A stretch of DNA of 57,017 nucleotides from positions 1-57,017 of IMG/VR virus record IMGVR_UViG_3300047356_000921; one strand, written 5' to 3'. How positions within the stretch are numbered: the first letter of the stretch is position 1; every line of letters starts with the position of its first letter. Made by a program: the position numbers and the translations under genes. The DNA comes from a virus. Under the pieces are notes generated by a model. The model saw nothing but the letters and a program-made list of their open reading frames with translations. It did no database searches and was not told where the DNA came from. Of the stretch, positions 1,313 to 38,661 are shown one piece after another.

Positions 1313-1399
1313 ATGGAACTATTAATAATGATTATAGTAATTGGTTTAACTATCCCGTTTGTAGGATTGCTTTGGATGTTCTATGATATGTTCAAGTAA
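1313..1399 (+). CDS. 28-residue single-span membrane peptide
   Basis: A small ORF with a strong Shine-Dalgarno (AAGGAGAAA) eight bases before ATG. The peptide is almost entirely hydrophobic (MELLIMIIVIGLTIPFVG...) and ends FYDMFK, so it is a single membrane helix with a short basic tail. It has its own promoter at 1265 and its last 8 bases overlap the end of the convergent HTH gene. The function is unknown. Confidence 0.55.
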   Translation: MELLIMIIVIGLTIPFVGLLWMFYDMFK

Positions 1400-1652
1400 C
1401 GCTAGGAAATCCGTACTTTTTCATTTTAGCAATTAAATTGGTTCTGCCTATCTTTAATAGTTTGGCAGCCTTAGTTTGATTGCCTTCAGATCTTGCAAGT
1501 GCATCACTAATTCTATCACGTTCAAGCATTTCAACTTCATCAGGTAATGCAGTTTCAAATTTAAGTTGCTCGTGATATTCGGCAAGTTCTCCGCATATGT
1601 TCCAAAGTGCTTCTTGTTCTTCTCGGTATTTTTGAGTTTCTAAATCATTCAT
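1392..1652 (-). CDS. Fis-type helix-turn-helix DNA-binding protein
   Basis: This is an 86-residue protein. Residues about 47-82 match the HTH_8/Fis motif, the C-terminal DNA-binding segment of NtrC-type activators: ISDALARSEGNQTKAAKLL then GRTNLIAKMKKYGF. The N-terminal half is helical and acidic and may dimerise. It is transcribed away from the csgF-csgG cassette, with a late-type octamer just upstream of its start (1657-1664, reverse strand) and a palindrome in the shared intergenic region. Autoregulation or control of the curli-like genes is a reasonable inference. Similar orphan Fis-like proteins occur in T4-like marine phages. Confidence 0.8.
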   Translation of the reverse strand: MNDLETQKYREEQEALWNICGELAEYHEQLKFETALPDEVEMLERDRISDALARSEGNQTKAAKLLKIGRTNLIAKMKKYGFPSVT

Positions 1653-1746: not shown

Positions 1747-1754
1747 AATAAATA
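1747..1754 (+). promoter_or_regulatory. Late promoter octamer AATAAATA for the csgF cassette
   Basis: The octamer lies 16 bp upstream of csgF, which also has a GGAGG Shine-Dalgarno. The flanking 12-mer TAAATACAAACG occurs twice, 27 bp apart (1722 and 1749), as if the promoter element had been duplicated. Confidence 0.6.
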
Positions 1755-3923: not shown

Positions 3924-5060
3924 ATGAAAATACTAATTCTCGTTTTATCCGTTTTTCTGGCTAGTTCAACGTTGGCGAATGCCCAAATAGGCACCGTAAC
4001 AGAACTTAACGGAGTTGGACAGATAAAACGTGACAAGGATATAATAGGCAACGACACAGGCACGTCTGTTGAACAAATGGACGAAGCAATTACAGAAAAG
4101 GGCAGGATGCGTATTGACTTTGTTGATGACACACGATTAGATGTTGTTGATCATAGCAGAGTAGTTATTGACGAATTTATATACGATCCTGCTACAGGCA
4201 CAGGGAAACTAGATATTAGAGCAAGCATTGGTGCTGTTCGATATGCTAGTGGACAGATTGCCAAAAACTCAAGACAGCAAGTAAGATTAAGAACTCCAAC
4301 AGCAACTATTTCTGTACGTGGCACAGACTTTGCTATGATTGTAAATGAAATTGGCGAAAGTTATGTAACATTACTACCTAGTTGCGAATATGACGGAATG
4401 GGCAACGAGCTCGAATGTGTAACCGGAGAAATTAAAGTAGAAAATGACGGCGGCTATGTTATTATGAATCAAGCATTTCAAATGACTCGTGTTAATAGTT
4501 ACAGCCAGCGTCCTAGTCCTCCTGTTATTGTTGACCTTACCGAACCACAGATTACAGGTATGCTTATAGTAAGACGCAAAGATCCTATTACTACAGCACA
4601 AGAAAAAGTATATCTAGAACAAAGAAAAACAGACATATTAAGTTTTGATTTTTTAAAGTTTGACGAATTAGAACAAGATGAACTTGTAGACAGCATCAAA
4701 GACATATGGGTAACAGAGTTAGATAGAGGTGCTGACTATTATCTACGTGAACAGTTGCTAAATATGATTGACGAGTTAAACAAGGCCTTATTAAAAAGTT
4801 TTCAAGATGAGCTACAAAAACAAAACGAAGAATTTTTTAAAGATAGAGCGTTAGGCTACGATGAAGATACAGGCATGTTTATAGATTTTGAAGATCCGAT
4901 GTGGCACATACGCAGACAGGATGTTAGTATAGAGAATACAATAGACATATATCTACACAACGAGTATGGATATAAACTTAATATAGAGCAGGGTGATGAA
5001 GCAGTATACGATTATATGCTTGGCGTTGGCAACAACAATATTAATATCAAACAACGCTAG
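3924..5060 (+). CDS. Secreted FecR-domain protein
   Basis: A 378-residue protein with a Sec signal peptide (cleavage near ANA/QIG, about residue 20). Residues about 22-200 form a FecR domain: early GxVxxLxGxxxIKR, GRMRIDFVDDTRLDVVDHS, IGAVRYASGQI, and the diagnostic RTPTATISVRGTDFAMIV. A charged helical region (about 220-320) follows, then a tail ending NNNINIKQR that echoes curlin strand units. There is no transmembrane segment, so unlike classical FecR it is not an inner-membrane anti-sigma sensor. Its place between two curlin genes suggests a periplasmic or surface scaffold for the fibre. It starts one base after curlin 1. Confidence 0.85.
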   Translation: MKILILVLSVFLASSTLANAQIGTVTELNGVGQIKRDKDIIGNDTGTSVEQMDEAITEKGRMRIDFVDDTRLDVVDHSRVVIDEFIYDPATGTGKLDIRASIGAVRYASGQIAKNSRQQVRLRTPTATISVRGTDFAMIVNEIGESYVTLLPSCEYDGMGNELECVTGEIKVENDGGYVIMNQAFQMTRVNSYSQRPSPPVIVDLTEPQITGMLIVRRKDPITTAQEKVYLEQRKTDILSFDFLKFDELEQDELVDSIKDIWVTELDRGADYYLREQLLNMIDELNKALLKSFQDELQKQNEEFFKDRALGYDEDTGMFIDFEDPMWHIRRQDVSIENTIDIYLHNEYGYKLNIEQGDEAVYDYMLGVGNNNINIKQR

Positions 5061-5709
5061 GGCAAATGACATTTATATCAACCAAGTAGGTGACAACTTG
5101 GAAATGCAAGTTATACAAGATGGCGATAACAACTATTTCCAGTATTGTACAAACGGCAATGATTCAAATTGTAAAGATGTAAACGGCAACGCACACGGTC
5201 GGGCAGACGGATTTACTAGTGACGATGCTATAGTGAATAGTGGTACAGTTGGCAACGATAATAAAGTTGTTGTAGCACACGCTACTGGAACAGGCAATAA
5301 TAACATCAATGAAACAAACATTGGAATCATAGGTGATCGCAACAAAGTACAAAACTTCTTTTCAAACCACAGTAGTGGAAGCCACAATTATAGTAATCAA
5401 GATTGGGGCGGTACTAAAGAAACTAATATTATGATTACAGGCGATGACAATTATGTAAAGGTTGACAGCGATAGTTATGGAGAAGTATATAGTGAGATTG
5501 AAGTAACTGGTGATGACAACAGTGTAATACTATGGCAAAGGTCAATGAATAATAGTGCTTCAATAGACGTAACCAATGCAGGCGGCCCTAGTACTGTTAC
5601 TGTTCATCAACTTGGTAGTAGTTACCAAGACACAGGATTAAACACATACGGTATTTCACAGACATGCGCTAATGCCAATGGTTGTTCAGTCACTGTGACG
5701 CAAAACTAA
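4996..5709 (+). CDS. Secreted curlin-repeat protein 2 (CsgA/CsgB-like)
   Basis: About 237 residues. ATG 4996 is preferred; a GTG at 4993 is also in frame. The signal peptide ends ARA, and mature ANDIYINQVGDNL nearly repeats the start of curlin protein 1. Units such as VIQDGDNNYF, VGNDNKVVV, IMITGDDNYVKV, IEVTGDDNSVIL and SVTVTQN recur to the C-terminus. It has two Cys pairs (CTNGNDSNC and a C-terminal pair). The signal peptide is coded within the 3' end of the FecR gene. With curlin 1 it probably forms the amyloid pair (main subunit and nucleator). Confidence 0.85.
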   Translation: MKQYTIICLALATTILISNNARANDIYINQVGDNLEMQVIQDGDNNYFQYCTNGNDSNCKDVNGNAHGRADGFTSDDAIVNSGTVGNDNKVVVAHATGTGNNNINETNIGIIGDRNKVQNFFSNHSSGSHNYSNQDWGGTKETNIMITGDDNYVKVDSDSYGEVYSEIEVTGDDNSVILWQRSMNNSASIDVTNAGGPSTVTVHQLGSSYQDTGLNTYGISQTCANANGCSVTVTQN

Positions 5710-5755: not shown

Positions 5756-6238
5756 GTGATAGATCCAATTACAGCGATTGCTGGAGCAACCGCGGCGTTC
5801 AACACAATAAAGCAAGGCTTTGCAGTTGGACGTGACATAGAATCAATGGCTGGCGATCTCGGAAGATGGATGGGAGCAGTCAGTGATATCAAAAAAGCAG
5901 AGGAACTCAATAAAAAACCTCCGCTATTCAAAAAACTTTTCCAAGCAGGTAGTGTTGAAGAAGAAGCAATGCAAATCTTTATGGCTAAAAAGAAAGCCCA
6001 AGATATGCGAGAAGAACTGAAACAGATTATTAGTTTTACTAGAGGTCCAAGTGCTTGGGAAGAACTTCTAAAAACAGAAGCAGACATCCGTAAGAAAAGA
6101 CAAAAAGCAATATACGATCAAGAAGAAAGACAAAGAGCATTTATTGAAGGAACTGCCATTGTTATAGGACTTTTGATATTAGTTGGAGGAGTATTAGCGT
6201 TATTTTGGTTTGTAGCAAAAGCGAGGGGCATGATATAG
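5756..6238 (+). CDS. Hypothetical protein with C-terminal membrane anchor
   Basis: A 160-residue protein starting at GTG (no ATG for 30 codons; AGTAGGG upstream). The N-terminus MIDPITAIAGATAAFNTIK is apolar and is followed by a long charged helical region (about 45-130). One transmembrane helix lies near 134-154, with a short basic tail. It could place a coiled coil on the cytoplasmic face of the inner membrane. Its late promoter and its place between the curlin genes and the cyclase suggest an accessory envelope role. No family recognised. Confidence 0.7.
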   Translation: MIDPITAIAGATAAFNTIKQGFAVGRDIESMAGDLGRWMGAVSDIKKAEELNKKPPLFKKLFQAGSVEEEAMQIFMAKKKAQDMREELKQIISFTRGPSAWEELLKTEADIRKKRQKAIYDQEERQRAFIEGTAIVIGLLILVGGVLALFWFVAKARGMI

Positions 6239-6463: not shown

Positions 6464-6678
6464 TACACGCATTTATGCTAGTAGTACTATTAGGTGGTGA
6501 GATACAACCGAGCCCTATGTATTTTAGAAGTATTGATGTTTGTCAATATTATGCTAAACGTATACCGAGACAGTATGGTAACTACGGATCAAAGTATCTA
6601 ATACCGGCAGAGCATAGAATTACAGCATATTGTAAGCCTGTAAAGGTTCAAGATGGTCCATACATATACGATCACTAA
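6460..6678 (+). CDS. Hypothetical exported 72-residue protein
   Basis: The start overlaps the previous stop (ATGA). A short apolar N-terminus (MIHAFMLVVLLGG) could be a signal peptide. The rest has two Cys and many Tyr, in the pattern F-x-S-x-D-x-C-x-Y/F-x-A-(R/K) with a later C. The protein encoded at 19732 has the same layout, so the two may be distant paralogues. No function known. Confidence 0.65.
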   Translation: MIHAFMLVVLLGGEIQPSPMYFRSIDVCQYYAKRIPRQYGNYGSKYLIPAEHRITAYCKPVKVQDGPYIYDH

Positions 6679-6684
6679 TAAATA
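6677..6684 (+). promoter_or_regulatory. Late promoter octamer AATAAATA for the cyclase gene
   Basis: The octamer is 35 bp upstream of the adenylate cyclase start, at the 3' end of the preceding gene. Confidence 0.5.
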
Positions 6685-6718: not shown

Positions 6719-8773
6719 ATGAAAAGATTACTAAGCCCTTGGTGGGCATTATTAACACTAGGGGTATTAGTATATGCGTTTGCAAATCCTAATAATTTTT
6801 TGCAAAGTATCAAACTAAATTACTTTGATCAACTGATTATTAATCAAGAACCAACGCAAAACAATATCTTTGTAGCAGAAATTGACGATGCTACTATAGA
6901 CAAGTTTGGACAATATCCTTTTCCAAGACACATATACTCAAACATTATTATTGACTTATATGACAAAGGAGCAGGGCTAGTTGTATGGAATATAATGATG
7001 CCCGAAGCAGACCGATTAGGTGGTGACGCTGATCTTGCAACAACAATGAGTCAGCTACCAGTTATACTAGCAAGTCGTCCCAGCGACAAAACAAAGAACG
7101 AACCTATAAATCCTGGGGCCGCAATATTACAAGCACAGTTTTTAGATCGCATATTACCATACGGCGGTATTATTGCAAATATTCCAGAACTTGAAAATAA
7201 TAGTGTTGGGGCAGGAATCGTTTCAACTGAGCCGGAGATAGATGGTGTTGTAAGACGCATGCCAACTGTCGCTGTCGTAGACGGTACACTATATCCTAGC
7301 CTAGCATTAGAAACTCTACGTGTTATTGCAGGCGATCCTAATTTCCAAATTAAACTTAATCAGTTTGGTATTGAAAAAATGCGTATACCAAACTTTGGTC
7401 CAATACCTACTGACTCAGAAGGGCGTGTATGGATAGACTGGAGTCAACGTTCTAATCGTATAAGCGTAACTGACTTATATAAAGAAGATGGTATAATGTC
7501 ATTTCAAGGTGCAATAGTAATAGTAGATGTTACAGCAACAGGTGTAGCAAACCCTGTTCCAACAGCAATAGGCGCACAATATGCAGGAACTACACAAGCG
7601 GCTGTACTAGGTACAATGTTTAATGGTACAAATATACAGCGTCCTGATTGGGCACCTGATGCAGAACTGTTAGCACTAGCTATAGGTGGGTTATTGCTTA
7701 TACTACTCAGCCGTTGGATGTGGTTAGGTCTTGTTACAACAGTTGTAATGATAGGCGGAGTTGTACCTTACAGCATATATGCGTACACAACAGAAAAGTT
7801 TCTTTTAGATGTTACAGCACCTGTTATAGTATTTGTAATAATTGCATTGCAAGTATATGGTATCAAATTTGTACGAGAATTCTTAGAAAAGCAAGCAATA
7901 AAGAAACAGTTCGCAGGATACGCATCACCTACTGTAGTACGCTTATTACAGGAAAATCCGGCACTTATTAAAGACGGTATGAAACGAGAAGTAAGCATAC
8001 TGTTCTCAGACTTGCGTGGCTTTACTCCACTAGGTGAATCATTTGGTGATGACGTAAAAGGACTTACCAAAATAATGAATGGCTATATGGATGCGATTAC
8101 ACAACCGGTGCTAGACGCAGACGGAATGATAATCAAGTATATTGGTGATGCTAGTATGCACATACACAACGCACCTATAGATGATCCTCATCATCCACGA
8201 ACCGCAGTGGAGACAGGATTATTAATGTTAAAAGCGGTGGAGAAGTTTAATGATAAAATTACAGCAGAAGGACGACCACCTGTCGGTATGGGTGCGGGAA
8301 TCAATACAGGACTGGGCTATCTTGGAGAAATGGGTAGCACCGCAAGACATTCGTACGATGTACTTGGAGACGCAGTCAGTACCGCCGCAAGAATCGAAAG
8401 CAAATGTAAAGAATACGGATGTCTACTCTTAGTTGGAGATGCAACTTATCAACAAACTAAAGACAACTTCTTTTACTTAAAGGTAGATGACTTGCAAGTA
8501 AAAGGTAAAAGTGTAGGATTAAGTATATACACTGTACTTGATGTTAAAGGAACACACGCCCAAAAGAAAAGTCAAGAAATGCACGAGCGTATGCACGATG
8601 CATATAGATCACAGAAGTTTGATGAAGCAATATATATTTGCGAAAGATTAAAACGTCATTTTGATGGCAAGATGGAAGGCTATTATGACATGTGGATTGA
8701 ACGTTGTGAGTTCCAAAAAACTCAAGATTTACCGTCTGATTGGAATGGTGTGTTTATTGCTACAAGTAAGTAG
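6719..8773 (+). CDS. CHASE2-domain membrane class III adenylate/guanylate cyclase
   Basis: A 684-residue protein with a full bacterial receptor-cyclase layout: transmembrane helix (about 8-22), extracytoplasmic CHASE2 sensor (about 45-290; EIDDATIDKFGQYPFPR, GAGLVVWNIMMPEAD), three helices (about 313-378), then a class III catalytic domain (about 422-607). Metal-binding D431 (FSDLRGFT) and D477 (KYIGD) are present. So are purine-specifying K473 and D547, which suggest ATP, and transition-state R558. The usual Asn of VNxAxR is Ser554 (AVSTAAR), so activity may be reduced or altered. Product is probably cAMP, but this is unproven. A late promoter precedes it. Phage-borne receptor cyclases are rare. 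Confidence 0.93.
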   Translation: MKRLLSPWWALLTLGVLVYAFANPNNFLQSIKLNYFDQLIINQEPTQNNIFVAEIDDATIDKFGQYPFPRHIYSNIIIDLYDKGAGLVVWNIMMPEADRLGGDADLATTMSQLPVILASRPSDKTKNEPINPGAAILQAQFLDRILPYGGIIANIPELENNSVGAGIVSTEPEIDGVVRRMPTVAVVDGTLYPSLALETLRVIAGDPNFQIKLNQFGIEKMRIPNFGPIPTDSEGRVWIDWSQRSNRISVTDLYKEDGIMSFQGAIVIVDVTATGVANPVPTAIGAQYAGTTQAAVLGTMFNGTNIQRPDWAPDAELLALAIGGLLLILLSRWMWLGLVTTVVMIGGVVPYSIYAYTTEKFLLDVTAPVIVFVIIALQVYGIKFVREFLEKQAIKKQFAGYASPTVVRLLQENPALIKDGMKREVSILFSDLRGFTPLGESFGDDVKGLTKIMNGYMDAITQPVLDADGMIIKYIGDASMHIHNAPIDDPHHPRTAVETGLLMLKAVEKFNDKITAEGRPPVGMGAGINTGLGYLGEMGSTARHSYDVLGDAVSTAARIESKCKEYGCLLLVGDATYQQTKDNFFYLKVDDLQVKGKSVGLSIYTVLDVKGTHAQKKSQEMHERMHDAYRSQKFDEAIYICERLKRHFDGKMEGYYDMWIERCEFQKTQDLPSDWNGVFIATSK

Positions 8774-8924
8774 TAGCAAGACACACAGTGGTTGCTAATA
8801 AACTTAGTATCAACGCACCAATACCAATACCACACACCCAATCACTATTGGCCCGTACCATTTCGCTAATAGTTTCCAAGGCACTGTTGACCGGTGTGGG
8901 TAATTGTAAATTACTTTTTTCCAC
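8760..8924 (-). CDS. Small membrane protein, 54 residues
   Basis: Start taken at GTG 8924, where GGGG lies upstream; an ATG at 8954 would add 10 residues inside the upstream gene. A polar helix is followed by one C-terminal transmembrane segment (VCGIGIGALILSLLATTVC). It is last of three leftward genes and overlaps the end of the cyclase by 14 bases. It could be part of a holin-type set. No family recognised. Confidence 0.5.
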   Translation of the reverse strand: MEKSNLQLPTPVNSALETISEMVRANSDWVCGIGIGALILSLLATTVCLATTYL

Positions 8925-9276
8925 TTTTATTCCCCGTAGAGTTGAAGGTGTCATTATCTAAATCAGTGTATTTTTGAACTATTTCTTCTAACTCTTTTCG
9001 TTTCTCTTTGTTAAGTTTTGCTTCATTTTCTAAAACCATACTTAACTTGGTATTCATTCTTATCATGTCATTGTCTAACATACGCACACGATCAACAAGT
9101 TTGATTAATGTACCCATTGTTTCTCCTATAACAGGATCAATTACAGTTGTTACCCATTGCCAGATAAAGTAGATAAAATAACCCATGCCTATAGCGGCAA
9201 TAATAGGAAATCCATAGTCACTTACCATTGAACCAATTGTGGTTCCTTGTTCTATAACTACTGTTGGATTTTCCAT
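8911..9276 (-). CDS. Membrane-anchored coiled-coil protein (holin-like candidate)
   Basis: A 121-residue protein. One hydrophobic stretch (about 22-45, GFPIIAAIGMGYFIYFIWQW) is followed by a long charged helix (about 50-110) with heptad-like spacing. The upstream gene product shares its layout (GFPI, then a membrane helix, then a D(N/R)-rich coiled coil), so they look like tandem paralogues. Size and topology resemble single-span holin-like proteins such as BhlA/UviB, but a structural role is possible. The start follows directly after the stop of the upstream gene. Confidence 0.65.
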   Translation of the reverse strand: MENPTVVIEQGTTIGSMVSDYGFPIIAAIGMGYFIYFIWQWVTTVIDPVIGETMGTLIKLVDRVRMLDNDMIRMNTKLSMVLENEAKLNKEKRKELEEIVQKYTDLDNDTFNSTGNKSGKK

Positions 9277-9561
9277 CTAGTCTCTCCTAGCATCGTCTTT
9301 ACCTTCATTGGCAGCGATTCTATCTACATTAGGTTTAATGTCTAAAGCATGGCTTAGGAGAGCATCAATTTTTACTAAATCATTATTCATAGTCTGTACT
9401 CGGTTGTCGAGTTGACCTATAATGTTTTTTAATGTTGTTACTGAGTCGGTTACACCTGCTAGGATAAATTTTAGGGTTAGAAAAACAAACCCACCTGCGG
9501 CTAGTGCTCCTGCTATAGGAAAACCGACTTCCCCAACAAGTGTTAGAAAGTCCATATTCAA
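9277..9561 (-). CDS. Membrane-anchored coiled-coil protein, paralogue of next gene
   Basis: A 94-residue protein, MNMDFLTLVGEVGFPIAGAL..., with one membrane helix (about 13-37) and a helical C-terminus (TLKNIIGQLDNRVQTMNND). It is first of three leftward genes, with late octamer CATAAATA on the reverse strand at 9590-9597. The divergent neighbour encodes a cell-wall peptidase-like lipoprotein, a context that fits a role in lysis. The holin role is inference. Confidence 0.65.
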   Translation of the reverse strand: MNMDFLTLVGEVGFPIAGALAAGGFVFLTLKFILAGVTDSVTTLKNIIGQLDNRVQTMNNDLVKIDALLSHALDIKPNVDRIAANEGKDDARRD

Positions 9562-9589: not shown

Positions 9590-9597
9590 TATTTATG
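9590..9597 (-). promoter_or_regulatory. Late promoter octamer CATAAATA, leftward
   Basis: Reverse-strand octamer 29 bp before the start of the leftward membrane-protein group. Confidence 0.5.
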
Positions 9598-10242: not shown

Positions 10243-10791
10243 ATGATCGAAGGTTTTAAGTTACCTCAGGTAACATTTAAAACACGGGTCCGAGATGATA
10301 GTATTGACGGCCCAAACCCTTTCCGTTGGGAAGACAAAACTACTGATGATTATTTTAAAGGAAAACGAGTAGTACTTTTCAGTTTACCAGGTGCATTTAC
10401 ACCTACCTGCTCAACATATCAATTACCAGGTTTTGAAGAAAACTACAATAAGATTAAATCTTTTGGAGTTGACGAAATCTATTGTATGAGTGTTAATGAT
10501 GCATTTGTTATGAATGCATGGGCAAAAGCACAGTGTATTGAACGTGTGAAAGTTATTCCAGATGGCTCAGGAAACTTTACAAGATTCATGGGTATGCTTA
10601 TTGGTAAAAACCATTTAGGCTTTGGTTTACGCAGTTGGCGATACATGGCAATTATCAACGATGGTGTTGTAGAGAAATGGTGGCAAGAGCCAGGCATCAA
10701 CAACGATGGGGTTGACGATGATCCGTATGTGGCATCAACACCTGAAAACTGTATTACATATTTAGATAACGAAGAAATAACAATTGACTAG
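10243..10791 (+). CDS. Peroxiredoxin (Prx5/redoxin family)
   Basis: A thiol peroxidase reducing H2O2 or organic peroxides. The 182-residue protein has the Prx5-type peroxidatic site PGAFTPTCS with Cys56, the AFVMNAWAKAQ helix and a W-R-Y-MAIINDG strand. Another Cys (in AWAKAQC) could resolve, or the enzyme may be 1-Cys. Length is normal for the family, and no targeting signal is seen. It starts a strongly promoted early operon and overlaps the next gene, an oxygenase-like protein, by 8 bases. It may protect infected cells from oxidative stress. Confidence 0.9.
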   Translation: MIEGFKLPQVTFKTRVRDDSIDGPNPFRWEDKTTDDYFKGKRVVLFSLPGAFTPTCSTYQLPGFEENYNKIKSFGVDEIYCMSVNDAFVMNAWAKAQCIERVKVIPDGSGNFTRFMGMLIGKNHLGFGLRSWRYMAIINDGVVEKWWQEPGINNDGVDDDPYVASTPENCITYLDNEEITID

Positions 10792-31034: not shown

Positions 31035-31127
31035 ATGAAACAAGTAGTCTTAAATGCTCATCCTACTATAAACACTCTGCGCATAAAACTTACTCGACTT
31101 ATATTACAGGAGGCAAGATATGGGTAA
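31035..31127 (+). CDS. Possible 30-residue peptide
   Basis: ATG 31035 two bases after the previous stop, ending 8 bases inside the PTPS-like gene. Basic and helical (MKQVVLNAHPTINTLRIKLT). It lacks a good Shine-Dalgarno but carries the AGGAGG of the next gene near its end, which suits coupled translation. Confidence 0.35.
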   Translation: MKQVVLNAHPTINTLRIKLTRLILQEARYG

Positions 31128-31569
31128 ACATTACAGTACAAAACATTACGGACACAACATTGGCTTATCAGCGGTGTTCCGTCAACCTAACGCTGATCAT
31201 TCACACTGTCATCTACTACACGGTTACAGTCTAGCATTTACATTTACATTTGGTTGTGATGAACTAGATAATAAAAACTGGGCAGTTGACTTTGGTGGAC
31301 TAAAACCTTTGAAGGCATGGCTAGAAGATCACTTTGATCACAAAGTAGCTGTAGACTCTGAAGATCCAGAGATGGAAACTATGTTAATGCTACAAAACTT
31401 AGGACTAGCAGAAATTAGAATCTTTGACGGTGTGGGTGCAGAGAAGTTTGCAGAACACGCATTTAACTTTGCAGATAAACTTATCAGAGAAGCAACAGAC
31501 AATCGTTGCTATTGTGTTAAAGTTGAATGTGCAGAACACGGAGCAAACTCAGCAATCTACGAGGCATAG
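31120..31569 (+). CDS. 6-pyruvoyl-tetrahydropterin synthase/QueD-like protein
   Basis: 149 residues. T-fold family enzyme in pterin or 7-deazaguanine (queuosine) synthesis. FRQPNADHSHCHLLHGYSL holds the catalytic Cys30 and zinc His residues, then WAVDFGGLKPLKAWLEDHFDHK and a C-terminal KVECAEHGANSAIYE. The usual H-G-H zinc pair reads H-G-Y (Y36), so zinc binding must differ. No QueC, QueE or FolE gene is in the window. Strong AGGAGG. Role in DNA or tRNA base modification is possible but unsupported here. Confidence 0.82.
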   Translation: MGKHYSTKHYGHNIGLSAVFRQPNADHSHCHLLHGYSLAFTFTFGCDELDNKNWAVDFGGLKPLKAWLEDHFDHKVAVDSEDPEMETMLMLQNLGLAEIRIFDGVGAEKFAEHAFNFADKLIREATDNRCYCVKVECAEHGANSAIYEA

Positions 31570-38310: not shown

Positions 38311-38661
38311 ATGACAGTTTGTACAATAACACCATCAGCAAATCAACAAATTAGTACTTTATGCGAGGAAAACAACTGCTATGCCATTACATTAGACATC
38401 AAAGGTGGCGGATGTGCAGGTTTTGAGTACGCATGGGGAACTGCTCAAGCAGAAGATCTTGAAGAAGGTGACGAAATAGTACAATGTGACAATGGCAACT
38501 TTGCTATTAGTAAGCATTCTGTTATGTTTTTAATAGGAACTGAAGTAGACTATGTAAAGAGTTTAGTAGGATCTAACTTCGAAATAAGAAATCCTAACGC
38601 ACAATCAGCATGTGGTTGTGGTGTTAGTGTAAACTTTAATATGGATACAATTCCACTATAA
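38311..38661 (+). CDS. A-type iron-sulfur carrier (IscA/HesB-like)
   Basis: 116 residues with three conserved Cys: C35 (IKGGGCAGFEY) and C101, C103 (QSACGCGVSVNF), the ligands of the Fe-S cluster or iron. Family fold complete. Carries clusters to apo-proteins such as the phage radical SAM protein. Under a late promoter in front of the virion genes, which suggests that a late or virion process needs Fe-S supply. Confidence 0.92.
   Translation: MTVCTITPSANQQISTLCEENNCYAITLDIKGGGCAGFEYAWGTAQAEDLEEGDEIVQCDNGNFAISKHSVMFLIGTEVDYVKSLVGSNFEIRNPNAQSACGCGVSVNFNMDTIPL

Follow-up and report, generated by a model that had tools for sequence, protein, structure and literature searches.

Curli modules carried by phages are widespread in the ocean, and the ideas published for them include sibling capture, pores and lysis timing.

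The closest described system is the pelagiphage T8SS (curli)-FecR-adenylate cyclase module. PMC9599517 reports an alphaproteobacterial origin and metatranscriptomic evidence of expression for it, and regards FecR as an iron-dependent regulator; CsgGF alone is discussed in PMC7029224 and PMC9004378. In bacteria, a FecR-TPR-CHASE2 cyclase cluster has been described in Campylobacterota (PMC9239204) and FecR-CHASE2 kinase operons in Burkholderia (PMC5192318), and the S. meliloti CHASE2 cyclases CyaD1, CyaD2 and CyaK respond through the outer-membrane barrel NsrA (PMC13001267). Active cyclases without the transition-state Asn are also known. In Ma1120 of M. avium, Ala replaces the Asn and the Lys-Asp pair is kept; the enzyme is active, and changing the Ala to Asn drastically lowers its adenylyl cyclase activity and abolishes its guanylyl cyclase activity (PMC4215837). 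Rv1900c, likewise an active cyclase, has His at this position (PMC4886424).

We analysed a 57-kb IMG/VR virus record (57,017 nucleotides; this whole stretch is referred to as the window) that carries a CHASE2 receptor cyclase with Ser at the position of the transition-state Asn.

A receptor cyclase beside a phage curli cassette

Among isolates, the cyclase of the window (Table 1) is closest to those of Methylophilales phage Melnitz (53% identity) and Pelagibacter phage HTVC008M (33%). A sequence-only reading of the window had placed a membrane CHASE2 cyclase on a phage, just after a curli-like cassette. Both placements are right: the source is an IMG/VR virus record with Melnitz and HTVC008M as kin, and the gene follows CsgF-CsgG-curlin-FecR-curlin with two small ORFs between. 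The window holds CsgF, CsgG, curlin repeats, FecR and cyclase in the conserved order of the pelagiphage module, whose gene families are also those of the window. This order is kept in Melnitz, in HTVC008M and with both types of cyclase distinguished below, which have Ser or Asn at position 554. Counting only loci with at least 5.5 kb of upstream sequence, we found FecR upstream of the cyclase in 54 of 58 Ser loci and 64 of 75 Asn loci, and CsgG in 52 of 58 and 61 of 75, respectively. Curlin-repeat protein 1 occupies the same position in Melnitz and HTVC008M, and the 5′ end of curlin-like protein 2 overlaps the 3′ end of the FecR gene in a different frame. The 160-aa membrane protein was found in 11/58 Ser-type loci and 0/75 Asn-type loci.

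Table 1. Features of the curli cassette and the receptor cyclase in the window
Feature	Coordinates	Strand	Basis
Late-promoter-like box NATAAATA, 15 bp before the csgF-like ORF	1747..1754	+	Motif scan, consensus match only
CsgF-like protein, 152 aa	1770..2228	+	Pfam CsgF E 4e-14
CsgG outer-membrane secretion pore, 342 aa	2209..3237	+	Pfam CsgG E 1e-51
Curlin-repeat protein 1, 250 aa	3170..3922	+	Pfam Curlin_rpt E 3e-4
Secreted FecR-domain protein, 378 aa	3924..5060	+	Pfam FecR E 1e-7, AlphaFold2 pLDDT 81.7
Curlin-like protein 2 with signal peptide	4996..5709	+	Curlin_rpt E 0.026, position conserved
C-terminal curlin-like strand of the FecR protein, GVGNNNINIKQR	5022..5057	+	N-x-I-x-I-x-Q, curlin-repeat spacing
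Small membrane-anchored protein, 160 aa	5756..6238	+	PHROG 32327
Late-promoter-like box AATAAATA, T4-late type, 34 bp before the cyclase ATG	6677..6684	+	Motif scan
CHASE2 receptor class III nucleotide cyclase, 684 aa	6719..8773	+	ORF, Pfam, AlphaFold2 model
CHASE2 domain (periplasmic sensor), aa 16-328, takes in part of the first membrane helix	6764..7702	+	Pfam
Class III cyclase catalytic domain, aa 422-598	7982..8512	+	Pfam, PDB matches
Ser554 codon AGT, transition-state Asn position	8378..8380	+	Alignment to solved cyclases

Besides the late-promoter-like boxes before the csgF-like ORF and the cyclase, further boxes lie before the ORF at 5756 (5709) and before structural genes (48157, 50625 and 53489). 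Upstream of related phage cyclases, boxes were present in 24/88 and 21/135 cases against a 2.4% background, an enrichment of about 10-fold. The late promoter proposed for the cyclase from the letters of the window is backed by its box and by this enrichment, and the cyclase is probably expressed late.

Several other genes of the window stand out. A Fis-type helix-turn-helix protein (1392-1652, minus strand) is encoded divergently from it and could regulate it. On the minus strand, two neighbouring genes (8911-9276 and 9277-9561) encode small membrane proteins, both PHROG 18771, and are apparently a tandem duplication; a divergent NlpC/P60-like lysozyme gene follows at 9595, and the group is possibly a lysis cluster. 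Host-like genes encode a redoxin (10243-10791), a 6-pyruvoyl tetrahydropterin synthase (31120-31569) and an Fe-S cluster assembly protein (38311-38661).

The cyclase matches CHASE2 (PF05226, E 2e-32, aa 16-328) and Guanylate_cyc (PF00211, E 9e-16, aa 422-598) in Pfam. Its AlphaFold2 model (pLDDT 87.7) has helices at residues 7-22, 312-332, 334-359 and 366-398, which together with the Pfam domains give the CHASE2 receptor layout: a first membrane helix, CHASE2, three helices and a C-terminal cyclase. The best fold match of the model was CyaB (3r5g; Z 25.0, rmsd 1.8 over 189 residues), with CyaC at Z 23 and both Ma1120 and Rv1900c at Z about 21. No solved sequence relative of CHASE2 was found. 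The receptor layout and the residues D431, K473, D477, D547, S554 and R558 are as first described for this 684-aa ORF. These results support a real membrane cyclase encoded by the phage gene.

Serine 554 and the catalytic domain

By fold and profile (CyaB 3r5g, PF00211), the catalytic domain belongs to class III. Ser554 aligns with the conserved transition-state Asn of solved bacterial cyclases, which bears out the substitution noted in the sequence-only reading. Lacking the Asn of the Asn-Arg pair, the window cyclase falls outside the canonical Asn-Arg subgroup; class III enzymes can do without this Asn, as Ma1120 and Rv1900c show.

A survey of phage cyclases for the same change had been suggested, and we carried it out on 246 cyclases from three IMG/VR scans and two isolates, a set that was not deduplicated. 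Position 554 is Ser in 95 and Asn in 150, and one sequence is cut off there. With 95 occurrences the residue is no one-off, and we rejected a single-genome lesion or sequencing error. All 95 Ser-type sequences have Ile472, His481, Ile or Val482 and Asp547, and 94 have His483. All 150 Asn-type sequences have Asp472 and Ser or Thr547, nearly always with Ala481, Phe482 and Trp483. When 59 rows were compared, the Ser type stood apart from Asn-type phage and cellular sequences at 21 of 213 catalytic positions, and 9 of the 21 fall in 472-483 and 545-555, the segments that bear the substrate residues. Five residues, Asp431, Asp477, Lys473, Arg558 and Lys597, vary little or not at all among the phage types: the metal-binding D431 and D477 are invariant in 245 phage sequences, the transition-state R558 is present in all phage sequences but one, and the phosphate Lys, K597, is conserved. 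Ser554 is a clade hallmark that comes with several other active-site changes; it is not damage.

In a tree built with 12 trait columns removed, the Ser-type sequences group together as a single clade (SH-aLRT 99). It sits within a larger phage clade (100) that otherwise consists of Asn-type sequences, and the branch carrying the Asn-to-Ser change is long (1.02 changes per column). Because the Ser clade is monophyletic and nested within phage Asn types, the Ser type appears to have a single origin, inside phages. For the catalytic domain, Nei-Gojobori dN/dS was 0.106 in Ser-type and 0.103 in Asn-type sequences; dS is near saturation in these estimates, and the pairs are not independent. By this measure, the Ser-type catalytic domain is as constrained as those of the Asn type and is under purifying selection.

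Many CHASE2 cyclases were present in 190 alphaproteobacterial genomes searched. All 29 alphaproteobacterial relatives examined have Asn554, with Ser or Thr547 in the motifs displayed, and the 29 best catalytic-domain matches among 299 Pseudomonadota genomes likewise have Asn. We also scanned the 299 genomes with a degenerate codon pattern that admits either Ser or Thr. The Ser matches were confined to two contigs of phage-like character, both in the bin of one genome, and there were three cases of Thr. The many inactive cellular homologues with Ser that the sequence-only reading had named as part of a refutation did not appear: zero cellular Ser homologues were found in the two sets of 29 relatives and the scan, and we rejected such homologues as the source of the Ser type. 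MAG-binned contigs L084-L086 were counted as phage, on account of 55-72% identity to the window and of cassette genes on two contigs of one MAG in this set, and were left out of the cellular counts. In L084-L087, phage cyclase and cassette genes occur in Rhodobacteraceae and Pirellulales MAGs, which is likely phage contamination of bins.

The alphaproteobacterial enzymes have CHASE2, membrane helices and a class III cyclase in common with the phage cyclase, and 25/29 relatives also have its W-[N/D]-G-V C-terminal tail. They differ in carrying D472, A481, F482, W483, Ser/Thr547 and Asn554, where the phage clade has I472, H481, I/V482, H483, Asp547 and Ser554.

Sensor and catalytic domains were compared separately. 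The window and Melnitz cyclases are 85% identical in the catalytic domain and 35% in CHASE2; for the Asn-type L078, identity to the window cyclase is 58% over CHASE2 and 47% over the catalytic domain. A tree of the CHASE2 domain unites Melnitz (Ser) and HTVC008M (Asn) with support of 99; on it the Ser label has to change five times, and well-supported branches force two of these changes. These patterns indicate that one catalytic type is recombined with divergent CHASE2 sensors, and such sensor swapping would fit a working output module.

Ser554 need not mean a dead enzyme, because active cyclases without the Asn exist. Ma1120 and Rv1900c have the same catalytic fold as the phage cyclase and keep the metal Asp and Arg residues, and Ma1120 also has the Lys-Asp pair. 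They differ in that they are soluble or hydrolase-fused, with Ala and His, respectively, whereas the phage residue is Ser, fixed clade-wide, in a membrane receptor. The notion implied at the outset, that Ser cripples catalysis, is weakened by these enzymes (PMC4215837, PMC4886424), and we think it likely that the Ser-type cyclase is active. Its product would most likely be cAMP, because Lys473-Asp547 is the ATP-specifying pair.

The Ser type could instead be inactive and conserved as a binding domain, a nucleotide-binding or dimerising relay for FecR/CHASE2 that no longer cyclises. Loss of the transition-state Asn on a long branch fits this alternative. We nonetheless consider it unlikely, because both metal Asp, needless in a mere scaffold, are kept along with the purine Lys/Asp, the transition-state Arg and the phosphate Lys, because constraint is the same as in the Asn types, and because of the active Asn-less cyclases. 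Quite unlikely, in our view, is an active Ser type with a different product, such as cGMP or a cyclic pyrimidine, serving as a private phage signal. The concerted change at about nine pocket positions, including Ser/Thr547 to Asp and A-F-W481-483 to H-I-H, and a weak match to the PycC HMM (E 2e-15) speak for it, but the pair Lys473-Asp547 is the usual one for ATP, general homology among class III cyclases accounts for the PycC match, and the reported pocket residues of pyrimidine cyclases vary between clades.

The FecR protein and its bacterial counterparts

The FecR protein is composed of a signal peptide, a FecR domain, a helical middle and a C-terminal beta domain, the last modelled by AlphaFold2 at residues 311-377 with pLDDT of about 85-92 over most of its length. 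The best Foldseek matches of the model were the anti-sigma factors PupR and BDI_1681, over the FecR part only, and the best cellular FecR matches span only about residues 15-220. A Foldseek search with the C-terminal beta domain gave zero curli matches, an absence that is no evidence.

Among 160 phage FecR proteins, the tail positions Gln377, Ile373, Ile375 and Asn371 are conserved in 99%, 87%, 81% and 71%, respectively. The N-x-I-x-I-x-Q motif occurs in 91 of 134 unique FecR tails against 3.1% of shuffled tails, and in 0/118 CsgG tails and 0/102 CsgF tails. The curlin-like tail is present with both cyclase types. We note that the FecR tail codons overlap the signal-peptide codons of the next gene, in a different frame, in 96/108 loci, and this overlap could shape the tail. 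The strict motif is found in 6 of the 12 FecR tails without overlap; overlap with the following curlin gene also occurs for CsgG tails (the window is an example), yet these never carry the motif. These observations suggest that the FecR tail is a curlin-type strand and that the fibre may be sensed via the cyclase module.

FecR is also a partner of CHASE2 cyclases in bacteria. Among the alphaproteobacterial matches listed, FecR lies within 4 kb of 27/92 CHASE2 cyclases where 0.48 would be expected, about 55 times above chance. The partnership surfaced only with a separate FecR search and a 4 kb limit; directly upstream of the 29 closest cellular cyclases, in flanks of about 1.2 kb or less, FecR was not evident. 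Under stricter ORF settings 5 of the 27 FecR loci were dropped, and partner counts rest on 21-22 loci. FecR was confirmed in 21/21 scanned loci, with C-terminal surface-type domains in some (TbpB barrel 2, Ig 2, RTX 2, VWA 2). The third partner is a TPR-repeat protein in 14/15 loci, with a recognisable SlipAM (Slam) barrel in 5/15 (one of the 15 is a mis-picked photolyase). In the alphaproteobacterial loci L337-L363, where FecR, a TPR/Slam-like barrel protein and a CHASE2 cyclase recur side by side, the surface-type domains at the FecR C-termini vary and sometimes include a TbpB barrel, resembling Slam cargo.

These bacterial clusters of FecR, TPR/beta-barrel and CHASE2 genes share with the phage cassette a FecR envelope protein, a CHASE2 cyclase and an outer-membrane barrel of export type. 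In the phage the outer-membrane part is CsgG/CsgF, with no TPR or SlipAM domain detected in the cassette genes by Pfam scan, and FecR ends in a curlin strand, whereas the bacterial FecR proteins end in TbpB-, Ig-, cadherin- or RTX-type domains. Near three cellular curli clusters (L334-L336) neither FecR nor a CHASE2 cyclase was recognisable, and the FecR-curli link may be phage-specific.

A possible envelope circuit and its alternatives

We propose that a working Ser-type cyclase provides the cytoplasmic output of an envelope circuit with three layers, in which FecR senses curli export, and we assign this reading a probability of roughly 50%. CsgG/CsgF would form the outer-membrane pore for curlin-like proteins. 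The secreted FecR protein, with its curlin-type C-terminus, would be kept in the periplasm and touch curlin subunits, the nascent fibre or the pore. CHASE2 in the inner membrane would read the state of FecR and switch the dimeric cyclase domain. Late in infection, the concentration of a cyclic nucleotide would change as a result, cAMP being the likeliest. This nucleotide would be read by host receptors. No cNMP-binding protein (PF00027) was found in the window and nine other phage records, including the complete Melnitz and HTVC008M genomes, so that any target would have to be a host protein. A membrane cyclase that is tied to the curli cassette and probably late supports, as a possibility, the earlier suggestion that the phage could raise a second messenger during infection. 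A bolder form of the proposal, which we hold to be rather unlikely, is a phage-born cyclase class with a re-engineered site and possibly a changed product, acting as the output of a ‘cargo-mimic’ FecR sensor that reports curli export.

The cyclase might merely raise host cAMP to redirect metabolism or surface genes, with the curli neighbourhood reflecting a shared late operon. Its own late-type promoter box would fit this, as would the loci from which FecR and CsgG are missing. We regard it as improbable, given that the CsgF-CsgG-curlin-FecR-curlin-cyclase order is conserved in both types and the two isolates, and that FecR commonly partners CHASE2 cyclases in bacteria. The enterobacterial circuit of cAMP-CRP and curli, which the sequence-only reading had brought up, finds no support: the complete Melnitz and HTVC008M genomes yielded no cNMP-binding protein, and PMC9599517 reports that CsgD is absent from these modules. 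A decoy or anti-defence factor against cyclic-nucleotide immunity (Pycsar, CBASS), also raised in the sequence-only reading, is highly improbable: a class III cyclase is carried by a phage and weakly matches the PADLOC PycC models, but the protein is a CHASE2 receptor in the membrane whose complete catalytic set is under purifying selection, it travels with CsgG and FecR in a cassette with zero defence-related neighbours, the cNMP-binding effector that accompanies PycC in Pycsar is missing (no PF00027 match in ten phage records), and the phage answers to Pycsar described in the accessible part of PMC9117128 are nucleases.

The curli-FecR-cyclase module itself was already known. What appears to be new is the Ser-type site, the recombination of domains, the curlin tail of FecR and the excess of FecR beside bacterial CHASE2 cyclases. 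We found no mention of the Asn-to-Ser type in the accessible sections of PMC9599517, PMC7029224 and PMC9004378, and none of sensor/catalytic recombination or of a curlin-like FecR tail in those of the pelagiphage module papers, including PMC9599517.

Sensing of curlin by the FecR tail, with the cyclase as reporter, would make the module a regulated system of fibre export, whose function could then be tested. The Ser type is a natural experiment, a class III cyclase without the Asn that has close Asn-type sisters for comparison. The C-termini of bacterial FecR proteins seem matched to the partnered exporter, and their partnership with CHASE2 could account for the signals to which FecR-linked CHASE2 receptors respond across bacteria.
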